The translations under genes and the position numbers were made by a program. Under the pieces are notes generated by a model. That model had not been told where the DNA came from, ran no database searches, and saw only the letters and a list, made by a program, of their open reading frames with translations. From positions 2,753,501-2,817,500 of the forward strand of contig NZ_RBXO01000001.1 in the NCBI RefSeq assembly GCF_003634935.1: DNA of 64,000 nucleotides, given 5' to 3'. Of this stretch, positions 44,558 to 50,502 are shown one piece after another. Each line of letters opens with the position of its first letter. The first letter of the stretch is position 1. The DNA comes from Saccharothrix australiensis (GTDB taxonomy: Bacteria; Actinomycetota; Actinomycetes; Mycobacteriales; Pseudonocardiaceae).

Positions 44558-45303
44558 TCCGCGTCGCCGCGGTCGGGGACGTGCACCTCGGCGAGGACGC
44601 GCACGGGCGGTTGCGCCCCGCGTTGGAGAAGGTCGGGGAGCACGCCGACGTGCTGCTGCTGGCCGGTGACCTGACCCGGCACGGCACCGTCGCCGAGGCG
44701 CGGGTGGTGGCCGACGAGTTCGGCGGCCTGCCGGTGCCGGTGATCGCCGTGCTGGGCAACCACGACCACCACGACGACCGACCCGACGAGGTCACCCGCG
44801 TGCTCGAAGACGCGGGGATCACGGTGCTGGAGGGCACGACCGCCCGAGTGGACGTCGACGGCCACACGCTGGGCGTCGCGGGCGTGAAGGGGTTCGGCGG
44901 CGGGTTCGCCGGCAAGTGCGGCAGCGCGTTCGGCGAGCGGGAGATGAAGGCGTTCATCCACCACACGATGGGCATCGCCGAGAGTTTGGAGAACGCGCTG
45001 CGCGGCCTGGACACGGACGTGAAGGTCGCGCTCACCCACTACGCGCCGGTACCGGACACATTGCGCGGCGAGCCGCCGGAGATCTACCCGTTCCTCGGCT
45101 CGTACCTGCTGGGCGAGGCGATCGACGCGACCGGCACCGACCTCGCCGTGCACGGGCACGCGCACTTCGGCGTGGAGCAGGGCATGACGCCCGGCGGCGT
45201 GCGGGTGCGCAACGTCGCGCAGCCGATCATCCGCACGGCGTTCACGGTGTACTGCGTGGAGCCGACCGAGGTGGCGCCGGCCGTGGAGGTGGTGGGGCGA
45301 TGA
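44554..45303 (+). CDS. Calcineurin-like metallophosphoesterase
   Basis: A 249-residue metallophosphoesterase with all metal-binding blocks: GDVHLG (Asp9, His11), LLAGDLTRHG (Asp39), LGNHDHHDD (Asn69, His70), LTHYAPV and GHAHFG. It hydrolyses phosphoesters, perhaps cyclic nucleotides or phospholipids. ATG at 44554 overlaps the BON gene stop. Its place behind a nucleotidyltransferase suggests opposing making/breaking activities, which is inference. Confidence 0.9.
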   Translation: MIRVAAVGDVHLGEDAHGRLRPALEKVGEHADVLLLAGDLTRHGTVAEARVVADEFGGLPVPVIAVLGNHDHHDDRPDEVTRVLEDAGITVLEGTTARVDVDGHTLGVAGVKGFGGGFAGKCGSAFGEREMKAFIHHTMGIAESLENALRGLDTDVKVALTHYAPVPDTLRGEPPEIYPFLGSYLLGEAIDATGTDLAVHGHAHFGVEQGMTPGGVRVRNVAQPIIRTAFTVYCVEPTEVAPAVEVVGR

Positions 45304-45812
45304 GCGGGATCGAAACCGAGGGCCCGTCGGTGGTGTGGGCGGGTCCGTCCGACGCGCCGGTGGTGCTCGTCCTGGACCCGGCGGGCGCGGCACCGCACGG
45401 CGAGCTGCCCGCGACGTGGCGGCCGCTGACCGAGCACCTGAGGGTGGCGTGGTGCCGCCTGCCGGTGGCCGACGATTCGCTGCGCGAGGCCGAGGCGGTG
45501 CTGGCGGACCTGCGGGGCCGCGACGTGCACGTGGTGGCGGGGGCGGCGGCCGGGTCGGGCGTCGGCGACTTGGCGAACCGGCACCGCGACCAGGTGCGTT
45601 CTGTTCAGACTTTCGCCGCGCCGCTGCCGTTGGGGCACCCGGACGTCGTGCTGGCGGTGCTGGAGAAGCTGCTGGCGCAGGACGTGGTGTCCGACGACGC
45701 CGGCTTGGACATCACCAGAGGTACCCCGTCCGGGGGATCTCTGCTGGGTGACGCGGCCACCGCGTTGTGGCAGTCGGTGTACCAGGTGGCGGAGCGCCTG
45801 AAGCGCGGCTGA
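45300..45812 (+). CDS. Alpha/beta-hydrolase-like protein, probably inactive
   Basis: A 170-residue protein: WAGPSDAPVVLVLDPAGAAP, TWRPLTEHLRVAWCRLP and VHVVAGAAAGSGVGDLANRH. These follow the first half of an alpha/beta-hydrolase, including an oxyanion-like loop and a GAAAGSG turn where the nucleophile Ser would be Ala. The C-terminal half is short and lacks a clear His. It may be a degenerate hydrolase with a binding role. Last gene of the operon, followed by a terminator. Confidence 0.55.
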   Translation: MSGIETEGPSVVWAGPSDAPVVLVLDPAGAAPHGELPATWRPLTEHLRVAWCRLPVADDSLREAEAVLADLRGRDVHVVAGAAAGSGVGDLANRHRDQVRSVQTFAAPLPLGHPDVVLAVLEKLLAQDVVSDDAGLDITRGTPSGGSLLGDAATALWQSVYQVAERLKRG

Positions 45813-45831
45813 GCAACTTTTCTTGAACCGG

Positions 45832-45857
45832 TGGCCCGAGGCACCCACCTCGGGCCA
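45832..45857. terminator. Hairpin between the operon and CRISPR array 1
   Basis: TGGCCCGAGG at 45832-45841 pairs with CCTCGGGCCA at 45848-45857 around a 6-nt loop. It separates the plus-strand operon from CRISPR array 1, which is transcribed toward it on the minus strand. Confidence 0.8.
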
Positions 45858-45866
45858 CAGCTGTCG

Positions 45867-46809
45867 AGGCCACCCCGCTCGCGCGCGGAAGACTCGGCCG
45901 CGTGTGAAAGACGCTCTCCCACCCAGGGTCACCCCCGCTCGTGCGGGGAAGACGTGACGGGCGGGTGGTCGGTCATCGGTGTGAGCGGACCACCCCCGCT
46001 CGCGCGGGGAAGACACCTCGGCGCGCACGAGCAGCACCTCACCCAACGGACCACCCCCGCTCGCGCGGGGAAGACGCGCGAGCAGGCCCGGAACCCGCAG
46101 GTCGGTGAGGACCACCCCCGCTCGCGCGGGGAAGACGGGATGAGCAGGTCATACACCGTCGGCCGCTTGGGACCACCCCCGCTCGCGCGGGGAAGACGGC
46201 GCGCCGAGCGGGCGGCATGTTGAGGTCCGCGGACCACCCCCGCTCGCGCGGGGAAGACCACGTGCTGCTGATCGAGCGCGGGCACGCCCCGGGACCACCC
46301 CCGCTCGCGCGGGGAAGACCCTGTGGATCAGGATGACGATGTCCGCGTCCTGGGACCACCCCCCGCTCGCGCGGGGAAGACGTAGGGCGCGAGCTTCTGC
46401 TTCCACGTCTGCGAGGACCACCCCCGCTCGCGCGGGGAAGACCGGATCGGATCGTGTTCGTCCCGGAACGCGATCGGACCACCCCCGCTCGCGCGGGGAA
46501 GACCCCGCCAGGAGGGCCACGTCGACGTGGGTGATCGGACCACCCCCGCTCGCGCGGGGAAGACAGGTCGGCCAGCTCCTGGTTGCCCAGCTCGGGAGGA
46601 CCACCCCCGCTCGCGCGGGGAAGACCCGTTGGGGATCATGAGCGTAACCAACGTTCCAGGACCACCCCCGCTCGCGCGGGGAAGACCGTATGCGGATTCG
46701 GCCCGTGGTACCTCACCCACGGACCACCCCCGCTCGCGCGGGGAAGACTCGTGGACGGTCAACGTGGAGGGCTTCGACGGCGGACCACCCCCGCTCGCGC
46801 GGGGAAGAC
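45867..46809 (-). CRISPR. CRISPR array 1 (type I-E-like), 16 repeats
   Basis: Sixteen 28-bp repeats start at 45867, 45926, 45987, 46048, 46109, 46170, 46231, 46292, 46353, 46415, 46476, 46537, 46598, 46659, 46721 and 46782, with spacers of 32-34 bp. In transcript orientation the repeat is GTCTTCCCCGCGCGAGCGGG followed by GGTGGTCC, a type I-E pattern with an inner C/G stem. The first two left-end copies are degenerate and the right-end copies are perfect. That, and the leader at 46810, show the array is read leftward with new spacers added at the right. Confidence 0.96.
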
Positions 46810-46925
46810 ACTTATTGACCTGCGAGTTTATCGTGTTACCCGTGGGTTTTCATTCGGTTCGTCGCAGTGTCGTAATGGTGCGGCACCACGAAGGGCGGCC
46901 GGGCGAGGTACGGCCGCCCTAAACG
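46810..46925 (-). promoter_or_regulatory. Leader of CRISPR array 1
   Basis: AT-richer sequence directly against the last repeat (CACTTATTGACCTGCGAGTT on the plus strand). It is nearly identical to leader 3 for ~65 bp, which marks the functional leader with the array promoter and integration site. It is bounded on the right by a hairpin (AGGGCGGCCG 46893-46902 with CGGCCGCCCT 46912-46921). Confidence 0.85.
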
Positions 46926-47140
46926 CGACTGACACGCAAGTGGGGCGATCCCACCCGCCGCGCGCCTCGATCCGGCGAGGTCACCGGGCGGGCGGCCGGG
47001 GTGCGGGATCACGGGGACTACCCCGCTCCGACCCCGGCCGCCGTCCGCGCTCATCGGGTCGGGTCGCCCGGCCGGGCCGCAGTCGGGCAGGTCGTAGCCC
47101 GTCTCGCTGGCCTGCGATCGAGAGCAACTGCGGCAACGGG
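46926..47140. repeat. Duplicated leader-flank and SRPBCC 3'-end fragment, copy 1
   Basis: This 215-bp stretch parallels 47888-48108 and 49853-50050. It holds a GTGGGGCGATCCCAC hairpin, a GGACTACCCCGCTCC relic of a repeat, and near 47055-47110 sequence equivalent to the last ~20 codons of the minus-strand SRPBCC gene at 49984. It then breaks off at CCTGCGATCGA into the end of array 2. There is no intact gene. Confidence 0.75.
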
Positions 47141-47761
47141 GGACCACCCGCTCGCGGGGGGAAGATTGCGCGTCCGCAGGTGACGAACTGCTCGACAGGG
47201 ACCATCCCTGCCCCCACGGGGAGAGCGACGTGCGCACGCGGAATGACGAGGACGTAGTCGGACCAACCCCGCTCGCGCAGGGAAGACATCAGCTCGGTGC
47301 ACGGCGCGACGGTGAGGTGCGGACCACCCTCCGGCACGGACCGCCCGAGCCCGCAGGGGGACGGGCTGACGGCGTCCCGCGCGGCGCGGGGAAGACTCGT
47401 GCTAGTCAACCACGCGCCATGCCTGGTGGGGGCCGTCCCCGCTCGCGCGGAGAAGACGGTTGCAGCCAGGCGATGTCGTACTCGTCGTCGGGACTATCCC
47501 CGCTCGCGCGGGGAAGACCCAACTGCGCGCAGGCCACCCGATGAGCGGCACGGACCGCCCCCGCCCGCGCGGGAAGACGAGTATTCGGCGTCGGTCAGCG
47601 ACCGCTGGCGCGGACCACCCCCGCCCGCGCGGGGAAGACCTCGGGTCGATGGACAGCTCAACCTCAGGGTGCGAACCACCCCCGCCCGCGCGGGGAAGAC
47701 AGGTTCGAGGTCGACCACGCCGAGGAGCTTGACGAACCACCCCCGCCCGCGCGGGGAAGAC
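47141..47761 (-). CRISPR. CRISPR array 2 (degenerate), 11 repeats
   Basis: Eleven repeats start at 47141, 47199, 47260, 47321, 47371, 47430, 47491, 47552, 47612, 47673 and 47734. The left half is strongly decayed (units at 47141, 47199, 47321 and 47371 have many changes and odd spacing). The right half uses a variant with CCCGCGCGGG in place of CTCGCGCGGG and GAACC for GGACC at the last two. Its leader has also diverged, so this array is probably little used for new spacers. Confidence 0.9.
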
Positions 47762-47890
47762 ACTTATTGACCTGCGAGGTTACCTCGTCGCACGGTGGTT
47801 TTCACTCGGTGCGTCGCAGTGTCGTAATGGAGCGGCAGGACGCGCTGGCACACGGCGAAGGGCGGCCGGACGTGGTCCGGCCGCCCTCAA
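47762..47890 (-). promoter_or_regulatory. Leader of CRISPR array 2 (diverged)
   Basis: It starts with the same CACTTATTGACCTGCGAG as the others but then differs (GTTACCTCGTCGCACGG against TTTATCGTGTTACCCG). The boundary hairpin is longer: AGGGCGGCCGGAC 47859-47871 pairs with 47875-47887 across GTG. Confidence 0.8.
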
Positions 47891-48108
47891 CGCGGCTGGC
47901 ACGCAAGTGGGCTGGCCCCACCCGCTGTGTGTCTCGATCCGGTGAGGTCACCGGGCGGGTGGCCGGGGGTGCGGGATCGCGGGGACCATCCCGCTCCGGC
48001 CCCGGCCGCCGGTCGCGCTCATCGGGTCGGGTCGCCCGGCCGGGCCGCCGTCGGGGAGGTCGTGGCGCGTCTCGCCGGCCTGAGATCGACAGCAACTGCG
48101 GCAACGGG
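47891..48108. repeat. Duplicated leader-flank and SRPBCC 3'-end fragment, copy 2
   Basis: It is very similar to 49856-50050 over ~190 bp, including the region equivalent to the end of the SRPBCC gene (from CTCATCGGGTCGGGTCG near 48017). It then breaks off at CCTGAGATCGACAGCAACTG into array 3. No gene is intact here. Confidence 0.75.
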
Positions 48109-49726
48109 GGACTACCCCGCTCACGCGGGGAAGACCGGCGGAGGTCGCTTAACGCGAACTCTAAGGCGGGACCACCTCCGCTCGCGCGGGGACGACTTCC
48201 AGGCCGCCAGCACCCGGTGCTGATACTCCGAACCACCCCCGCTCGCGCGGGGACGACGGCATCCGGCTTGGCGTTCTGAACCTCGAACGGGGACTCCCCC
48301 GCCCGCGCGGGGAAGACCAGGTGGCCGCCGCCCGGCGCGGCGGTGCGCTAGGGACCATCTCCGCTCGCACAGAGACGACTGATGGGCACCGACAACCTGC
48401 TCGGCGTGCTACGGACCACCCCCGCTCGCGCGGGGAAGACCGCGCTCACCGACAGCGCCGACGCGAGCCAGCCCGGACCCCCGCTCGCGCGGGGAAGACC
48501 TTCGGGGGTGGGTTCGGCCATCGCAGCGGCTCGGGACCACCCCCGCTCGCGCGGGGAAGACGGAAATGGAACCGTCCGGCGTCTCCACCCGGAAGGACCA
48601 CCCCCGCTCGCGCGGGAAGACCGGGCTACGCGCACTACCGTCTCGGCTGGCGGGGGACCACCCCCGCTCGCGTGGGGAAGACCCCCTCGGGCAGGCGGTG
48701 CTGCTGTGCCGCCTGGGGCCACCCCCGCTCGCGCGGGGAAGACGCCGGGCGGACCTGGCGCTGTGGGGCGGTTTCGCGGACCACCTCCGCTCGCGCGGGG
48801 AAGACCGGAGTGCGCGTGCAGCCGGTGCTGCGCGCCGCCGGACCACCCCCGCCCGCGCGGGGAAGACGGGGAAGACGGGGTGTTGCCGCCGGAGTTGGCG
48901 GGGCGGTACGGACCACCCCCGCTCGCGCGGGGAAGACAAGCCGTTGGTCCCGGCCGACTACGCCATCGCGGGACCACCCCCGCTCGCGCGGGGAAGACCG
49001 TCTCTGCGGCGCGGCGACATCGGTGGGGGCCGGACCACCCCCGCTCGCGCGGGGAAGACCCGGGTGGGAGTGGTGCTACGCGCCGGGTGTCGGACCACCC
49101 CCGCTCGCGCGGGGAAGACTACCGCACGACCGGCCGGAACGGCTCCGTGACGGGACTACCCCCGCTCGCGCGGGGAAGACCTGTACGTCCTGCCCGCCGT
49201 GGTGTTGTGAAAAGGACCACCCCCGCTCGCGCGGGGAAGACTGCTCGACTGCTACAAGCGCGGAAATCGGATCCGGACCACCCCCGCTCGCGCGGGGAAG
49301 ACATCCCCGCCGGCCGGTCCGGGCACGCCCACCGCGGACCACCCCCGCTCGCGCGGGGAAGACCGCGCGTGATTTCGGCGCATCCCGCGCGGAGGACCAC
49401 CCCCGCTCGCGCGGGGAAGACTGGCTGGTCGACCGACTCCGCAGGCTCGGCCAGGGACCACCCCCGCTCGCGCGGGGAAGACGCCGCGTTCGCCGACCTC
49501 GACCGCCACGCCCGCGGACCACCCCCGCTCGCGCGGGGAAGACACGATCGCCGCCCTGCGCGCCGAGCTGGCCCGCGGACCACCCCCGCTCGCGCGGGGA
49601 AGACGCGAACGGGCACCATGCCATCGCGCGCTCCTCCGGACCACCCCCGCTCGCGCGGGGAAGACCCGTGTCCAACCTCCGCAAAGAGTCTGCGCAGGGG
49701 ACCACCCCCGCTCGCGCGGGGAAGAC
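48109..49726 (-). CRISPR. CRISPR array 3 (type I-E-like), 27 repeats
   Basis: Twenty-seven repeats start at 48109, 48169, 48230, 48291, 48352, 48413, 48475, 48534, 48595, 48655, 48716, 48778, 48840, 48910, 48971, 49032, 49092, 49153, 49214, 49275, 49336, 49394, 49455, 49516, 49577, 49638 and 49699. The left end has variants (GGACGAC, AGAGACGAC, a 3-bp deletion at 48475). From 48910 rightward most are perfect. Spacers are mostly 32-33 bp. One, at 48868-48909, is 42 bp and begins with a second GGGAAGAC. It is read leftward from the leader at 49727. Confidence 0.96.
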
Positions 49727-49855
49727 ACTTATTGACCTGCGAGTTTATCGTGTTACCCGTGGGTTTTCATTCGGTTCACGGCAGTCTCGTAAAGCTGCGG
49801 CACGGTGTACCAGAACACGGCGAAGGGCGGCCGGACGTGGTCCGGCCGCCCTCAA
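49727..49855 (-). promoter_or_regulatory. Leader of CRISPR array 3
   Basis: It is nearly identical to leader 1 for the first ~65 bp next to the repeat. The hairpin AGGGCGGCCGGAC (49824-49836) pairs with 49840-49852 across GTG. Beyond it lies the end of the SRPBCC gene at 49984, which reads in the same direction as the array. Confidence 0.85.
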
Positions 49856-49983
49856 CGCGGCTGGCACGCAAGTGGGCTGGCCCCACCCGCTGTGTGTCTC
49901 GATCCGGTGAGGTCACCGGGCGGGTGGCCGGGGGTGCGGGATCGCGGGGACCATCCCGCTCCGGCCCCGGCCGCCGGTCGCGC

Positions 49984-50502
49984 TCATCGGATCGGGTCGC
50001 CAGGCCGGCCGCCGTCGGGCAGGTCGTGGCGCGTCTCGCCGGCCTGCGGCGGGCGGCTCACGTCGCCCCTCCAGCCGCCGGTCTCGCTGCCGCGCTGCTC
50101 GATGAACTTCTTGAACCGGTCCAGGTCGCCGGAGACGCGGTGCTCCACGACGCCCAGCGCCGCACCGGCCTTCTCGGTGAACGTCTGCGGGTCGAACTCC
50201 ATCTGGAGGTGCACCCGCGTCGCCCTGTCGTTCAGGCGGTGGAAGGTCACCACACCACCCTGCGGGGGACCGTCGACGGTGTGCCACGCCACCCGCTCGT
50301 CCGGGTGCTGCTCGGTGATCTCCGCGTCGAACTCGCGCCGCACACCGGCGATCTTGGTCACCCAGTGGGTCCTGGTGGCCGTGACCTGCGTGATGCTCTC
50401 GACGCCCTCCATGAAGCGCGGGAACGACTCGAACTGGGTCCACTGGTTGTACGCGGTGGTGACCGGAACCTCGACGTCCACGGACTTCTCGATCGTCGTC
50501 AC
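49984..50502 (-). CDS. SRPBCC-family (cyclase/dehydrase) protein
   Basis: A 172-residue SRPBCC protein: KSVDVEVPVTTAYNQWTQFE, FPRFMEGVESI, WVTKIAGVRREFDAEI and a long helix (RVSGDLDRFKKFIEQRG). A disordered Gly/Arg/Pro-rich tail of ~30 residues follows. This family (cyclase/dehydrase) is common in actinomycete stress regions. GTG start at 50502 follows GAGAGG. Fragments of its last ~20 codons recur at ~47055-47110 and ~48015-48070, so this is the source copy of the duplicated CRISPR flank. Confidence 0.85.
   Translation of the reverse strand: MTTIEKSVDVEVPVTTAYNQWTQFESFPRFMEGVESITQVTATRTHWVTKIAGVRREFDAEITEQHPDERVAWHTVDGPPQGGVVTFHRLNDRATRVHLQMEFDPQTFTEKAGAALGVVEHRVSGDLDRFKKFIEQRGSETGGWRGDVSRPPQAGETRHDLPDGGRPGDPIR

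Follow-up and report, generated by a model that had tools for sequence, protein, structure and literature searches.

Within the window (the whole stretch of DNA analysed, 64,000 nucleotides from Saccharothrix australiensis, corresponding to C1:2753501-2817500 in the host genome, G000), three tandem CRISPR arrays fill the interval between a conserved gene for a protein of 170 aa, which gave no Pfam or NCBIfam match at E 0.001 (45300-45812, + strand), and a gene for an SRPBCC-type protein (49984-50502, - strand). The repeat unit is GTCTTCCCCGCGCGAGCGGGGGTGGTCC, all three arrays run leftwards with their leaders at the right ends, and together they hold 53 repeats (16 in array 1, 10 in array 2 and 27 in array 3). 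The features of the locus, in window coordinates, are:

45300..45812, + strand: conserved 170-aa gene, left border of the arrays; adjoins the SRPBCC gene in 17/24 relatives
45830..45859, + strand: terminator-like hairpin 3' of the 170-aa gene; fold z -4.98, absent from the list of a scan for T-run terminators
45866..46809, - strand: CRISPR array 1; 16 repeats, 13 perfect
46810..46882, - strand: leader 1 (outer end approximate); leading 51 bases as in leader 3
46893..46919, - strand: SRPBCC-gene hairpin, copy 1; mutated, folding retained
47051..47114, - strand: SRPBCC gene-end fragment, copy 1; 64 nt, with a 1-base insertion
47115..47139, no strand: junction tail, copy 1; boundary between the gene fragment and the oldest repeat of array 2
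47139..47761, - strand: CRISPR array 2; 10 degenerate repeats, none perfect, with up to 9 mismatches allowed
47762..47850, - strand: leader 2 (outer end approximate); diverged from leaders 1 and 3
47860..47886, - strand: SRPBCC-gene hairpin, copy 2; identical to the native hairpin
48019..48082, - strand: SRPBCC gene-end fragment, copy 2; 64 nt, 1-base insertion as in copy 1
48083..48107, no strand: junction tail, copy 2; abuts the oldest repeat of array 3
48108..49726, - strand: CRISPR array 3; 27 repeats, 15 perfect, old end degenerate
49727..49816, - strand: leader 3 (outer end approximate)
49825..49851, - strand: native SRPBCC-gene hairpin; homologous hairpin sequence in the related genome G001
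49984..50502, - strand: intact SRPBCC-type gene (Pfam Polyketide_cyc, PF03364); its copied end is 49984-50046

With a repeat of 28 nt, spacers of ~33 nt and a period of mostly 61 nt the arrays have the dimensions of type I-E arrays, and the repeat is presumably of the I-E kind as well (we take the "Ecoli subtype" of earlier nomenclature to be type I-E in current naming). A cas locus of type I-E starts ~133 kb to the right of array 3, where the I-E models for Cse1, Cse2, Cas7, Cas5, Cas6 and Cas1 score over their cut-offs, that is, the interference genes and cas1 are present. For Cas3, the core and HD models score over the cut-off and the full-length model under it. The gene cas1 is followed by an IS5-family element with 15-bp inverted ends (L209:7028-7960, G000:C1:2935027-2935959), and 6 bases past this element (L209:7966) the sequence ceases to be homologous to the cas locus of G001. 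A search for Cas2e with PF09707 gave no match in the host genome, compared with matches in 8 of 25 genomes of the genus. Spacer uptake is probably broken in this strain, as far as can be judged from its sequence.

The three arrays differ in their state of preservation: perfect repeats make up 13/16 of array 1, 0/10 of array 2 and 15/27 of array 3, and arrays 1 and 3 each have a decayed old end of their own. No spacer, not even the oldest, is common to any two of the arrays among their 50 spacers. The best pair of spacers from different arrays scores 13, within the range of 11-16 reached by 30 shuffles, and the highest-scoring pair of all (score 17) lies entirely within array 3. Common spacers were therefore set aside as proof of duplication; either they have all been lost, or the copied unit held little beyond a terminal repeat. 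New repeats are copied from the first (leader-proximal) repeat of an array. The three leader-proximal repeats of array 2 share a variant base, which suggests that this array acquired its own spacers.

Copied gene ends and their junctions

Alignment of the three flanks reveals unbroken similarity from the leader through positions 47114, 48082 and 50046, respectively, i.e. to the end of the motif CTCGC(C/T)GGCCTG. Past this motif flanks 1 and 2 diverge from flank 3 and share a tail, (C/A)GATCGA(G/C)AGCAACTGCGGCAACGG, which is 25 nt long (47115-47139 and 48083-48107) and has two differences between the copies. The tails of flanks 1 and 2 abut the oldest repeats of arrays 2 and 3, respectively, whereas flank 3 instead enters the intact gene. 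Behind leaders 1 and 2 the copied DNA comprises a terminator-like hairpin, the intergenic DNA and the final 63 nt of the SRPBCC gene (49984-50046, its last 20 codons and stop), the gene-end copies being 64 nt each owing to a common 1-base insertion. The copied stretch measures 305-321 bp with the leader and ~230 bp without it. A preliminary description of this DNA had already noted flank copies of ~200 bp that end at the same motif and reach into the SRPBCC gene, and the alignment agrees with it on both points; a DNA search of the genome likewise bears out its claim that the complete gene stands solely beside array 3.

When the 320 bp from 49728 to 50047 were searched against the host's own genome, the three strong matches (E 2.5e-165, 1.8e-123 and 8.8e-96) all lay in the window, and three further ones were 31-38 bp long (E 1.5e-5 to 6.1e-4). 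The junction pattern, with up to 3 mismatches allowed, is present in only one of 390 genomes of the family, which is the host genome. The locus thus has the marks of tandem duplication: all units have one orientation, the breakpoint lies inside a gene that is intact elsewhere, and the novel junction is common to both extra copies and absent from relatives.

To the left of array 1 the junction tail was not found, and the unit thus lacks its original left end there; the oldest repeat of array 1 begins 6 nt beyond the hairpin of the 170-aa gene (45859 to 45866). As native DNA in relatives the tail gave only 3-mismatch matches, at other places. It may have originated as a truncated self-derived spacer or as filler DNA, and chance is also possible. 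In copy 2 of the tail, 21 nt are identical to the genome's own penicillin-binding-protein gene (PF00905; G000:C1:357113-357136).

All three SRPBCC-gene hairpins show good folding scores on the minus strand (z -4.06, -5.17 and -5.17), and the two copied ones sit, in their native orientation, downstream of arrays 3 and 2 in the direction of transcription. They may be putative terminators that end the transcripts of arrays 3 and 2 before the next leader. The scan for T-run terminators did not list the hairpins, the required T-run being missing, and the scan for sigma-70-type promoters reported no promoter-like site.

Array-free relatives and mosaic flanks

The SRPBCC gene has a match in all 24 of the same-genus genomes compared. 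In 17 of them its neighbour is the 170-aa gene, the two matches being 117-418 bp apart and no array lying between them. In four others (G002, G010, G012 and G024) a metallophosphoesterase gene adjoins it instead, with 82-290 bp between the matches; G006 and G011 show other contexts, and in G017 the locus ends at a contig end. No array was found at the SRPBCC site in the 24 genomes (23 of them informative, G017 lying at a contig end), and the search for one-, two- and three-array states among them found no one- or two-array relative. The 24 genomes contributed 25 loci, which were scanned together with as much as 1.5 kb of DNA to either side; repeats with up to 6 mismatches turned up in G011 only. 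In this genome, which belongs to another species, the locus is rearranged, and two relict CRISPR repeats (L041:9877-9966) lie at a distance of 853 bp from the SRPBCC gene. A wider contig search returned at least 586 relatives of the SRPBCC protein, of which the best 80 were examined with up to 6 kb on each side; among these 80, repeats within 5 mismatches occur in L112 only, which is the same G011 locus, and four others have single matches at 6-7 mismatches.

Flank 3 aligns with the relatives from ~49921 inwards (matches start between 49921 and 50041, depending on the relative), and in G001 the alignment also takes in the hairpin. Judged from these alignments, flank 3 is the native one, from which flanks 1 and 2 were copied, because the copied bases (~49921-50046, and the hairpin in G001) are native in array-free relatives. 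The flank of array 3 is also where the preliminary description had placed the source, and only copy 3 has kept the gene. That description further held that array, leader and gene end had been copied as a unit: this stands for the leader, the gene end and the oldest repeat with its tail, and finds no support for the array content, of which no spacer is common. Copies 1 and 2 share the 1-base insertion and an A-to-G change, both absent from the gene and from 5/5 aligned relatives, and hence both descend from one scarred copy. Over the intergenic DNA, flanks 1 and 3 are identical at 142/166 positions (1 gap) and flank 3 and G001 at 92/142 (27 gaps); the greater closeness of flanks 1 and 3 suggests that the duplication is younger than the split from G001.

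The copies are not related in the same way along their whole length. From the leader inwards, flank 1 agrees first with flank 3 (leaders 1 and 3 are identical over the leading 51 bases), then mostly with flank 2, after which flanks 2 and 3 are identical at 167/167 intergenic bases; in the gene end, flanks 1 and 2 agree at three columns, the insertion among them, and beyond these the pattern is mixed. Sites at which two flanks agree against the third number 49 and fall into only 8 runs, compared with a mean of 29.2 in shuffled data (p ~5e-5, the floor of 20,000 shuffles); 17 of the 66 variable columns had been dropped for this test, eight of them as three-state and nine as gapped. At columns that vary among seven other leaders, leaders 1 and 3 agree at 40/43 (including one column gapped in all three leaders) and leaders 2 and 3 at 30/43, so selection on a leader motif does not suffice to explain how alike leaders 1 and 3 are. 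The core of leader 2 differs from those of leaders 1 and 3, while behind the core it is leader 3 that differs from leaders 1 and 2, and thus at least two exchanges are needed beside two duplications.

From this observed mosaic we infer that later homologous exchange reshaped the flank copies. A short conversion tract of later date fits the perfect identity of flanks 2 and 3 best, because arrays 2 and 3 have no common spacer. For the same reason, together with the 167 identical bases, the mosaic was not put down solely to one unequal crossover giving rise to the middle unit, a possibility that had also been considered. Flank 1 differs from flanks 2 and 3 at 27 ungapped sites; G001 agrees with flank 1 at 7 of them, with flanks 2 and 3 at 14 and with neither at 6, so the sites do not point to one direction of exchange.

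Proposed history of the arrays

The following history, taken as one model, is in our opinion very likely to be right. One leader-array would have entered the short gap between the convergent genes, just outside the SRPBCC hairpin, as the array-free relatives suggest. The next step would have been a tandem duplication whose limits were the old end of the array (tail and oldest repeat) and a point 63 nt within the SRPBCC gene, so that a truncated gene end remained as a scar; here the junction itself is observed and the event is reconstructed from it. The scarred unit would have been duplicated again, because the junction and the insertion are common to copies 1 and 2, to give three leader-array units in the same orientation. 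Each copy would have brought the SRPBCC hairpin, as a putative transcript end, behind arrays 3 and 2. Every unit would then have acquired spacers of its own, as the missing common spacers imply, and homologous exchange would have occurred between flanks 2 and 3 and between the leader cores of units 1 and 3. Array 2 has decayed, in contrast to arrays 1 and 3, whose repeats are still mostly good.

A rather unlikely alternative is a larger tandem duplication that included the whole SRPBCC gene, followed by a deletion that brought the old end of the next array up against the last 63 nt of the gene, the product being duplicated in turn. This would yield the identical single junction and the common insertion, and would also account for the missing original left end; however, it requires one extra event, and the copies contain at most 63-64 nt of the gene. 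It is very unlikely that the copied flank inserted into one long array and so broke it up: although splitting is among the origins named for multiple arrays (PMC12814883), here every array comes with its own leader, and array 1 as well as array 3 has a decayed old end to itself. That the copied stretch is a long functional leader, alike through function and not through duplication, is barely credible, despite the 51 bases identical in leaders 1 and 3 and the hairpin retained in all three copies, since seven other leaders share only 15/58 aligned core columns, strong matches behind the core occur only at the three sites of the window, the matches listed away from SRPBCC genes in 25 genomes are short and weak, and the stretch includes gene codons and continues into the common tail.

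Beside the tandem triple, the genome contains two dispersed pairs of arrays, at 1636 kb/7804 kb (L036/L078) and 1832 kb/6915 kb (L073/L077), which have common flanks on both sides (leader side, several hundred bases; trailer side, ~200-300) and no common spacer. The leader-side flanks of the first pair are 91% identical over 394 bp, and those of the second 85% identical over 343 of 454 bp. The flank of the 7804-kb array (L078:8038-8431) holds a palindromic repeat dispersed in the genus (36 matches each in G003, G009 and G015), so flank sharing in the first pair may have another cause; 17 of 25 genomes match some part of its 394-bp flank. The 4752-kb array (L075:7044-7560) contains one spacer twice, with one other spacer in between. 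It is conceivable, if improbable, that arrays in this genome multiply as near-empty seed cassettes (leader, terminal repeat and outer flanks) and not as filled arrays, the tandem triple and the two dispersed pairs being three outcomes of one process.

Relation to known array duplications

Duplication, transfer and splitting are named as origins of multiple arrays in the available part of a recent study (PMC12814883, Microlife 2026), which, like the present case, concerns arrays of one consensus repeat in one genome that duplicate and then change their spacers. Recent duplication is gauged in that part by common spacers or a common last spacer (4.1%), whereas the arrays described here have no common spacer, and it is the host-gene DNA within the copied flank that proves their duplication. 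Duplication was also weighed as an explanation for similar leaders in Escherichia and Salmonella (PMC2886076, PLoS One 2010). According to the part of that paper available to us, CRISPR1 and CRISPR2 of Salmonella resemble our arrays in being two arrays of the same system (Ecoli subtype) with similar leaders and no common spacers; recent duplication was doubted there, the sequences being divergent, the loci non-contiguous and no spacer common, in contrast to the contiguous tandem units with a common breakpoint in S. australiensis. The duplication and deletion of spacer-repeat units through recombination or replication misalignment (PMC8047081, Front Microbiol 2021, available in part) is similar in that recombination between repeated units remodels arrays. 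The units treated there lie within one array, whereas here the leader, the array end and the end of a flanking gene were copied and would later have been exchanged between arrays.

Among the papers listed on array duplication, Saccharothrix and actinobacterial type I-E systems, titles and abstract openings yielded no published array duplication with a flanking gene fragment, which does not prove that none exists. Array duplication is a known route and not a new system; the gene-end scar is unusually clear evidence for it, and thus supports duplication despite the lack of common spacers.

Multiple arrays with the same repeat are often judged by their common spacers, although spacers turn over. 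At this locus a common origin is visible through host-gene DNA without any common spacer, and duplication counts based on spacers may therefore be too low. Comparison of leader flanks provides a simple test that could be scaled to many genomes, and the mosaic leaders suggest that duplicated arrays go on exchanging leader sequence.
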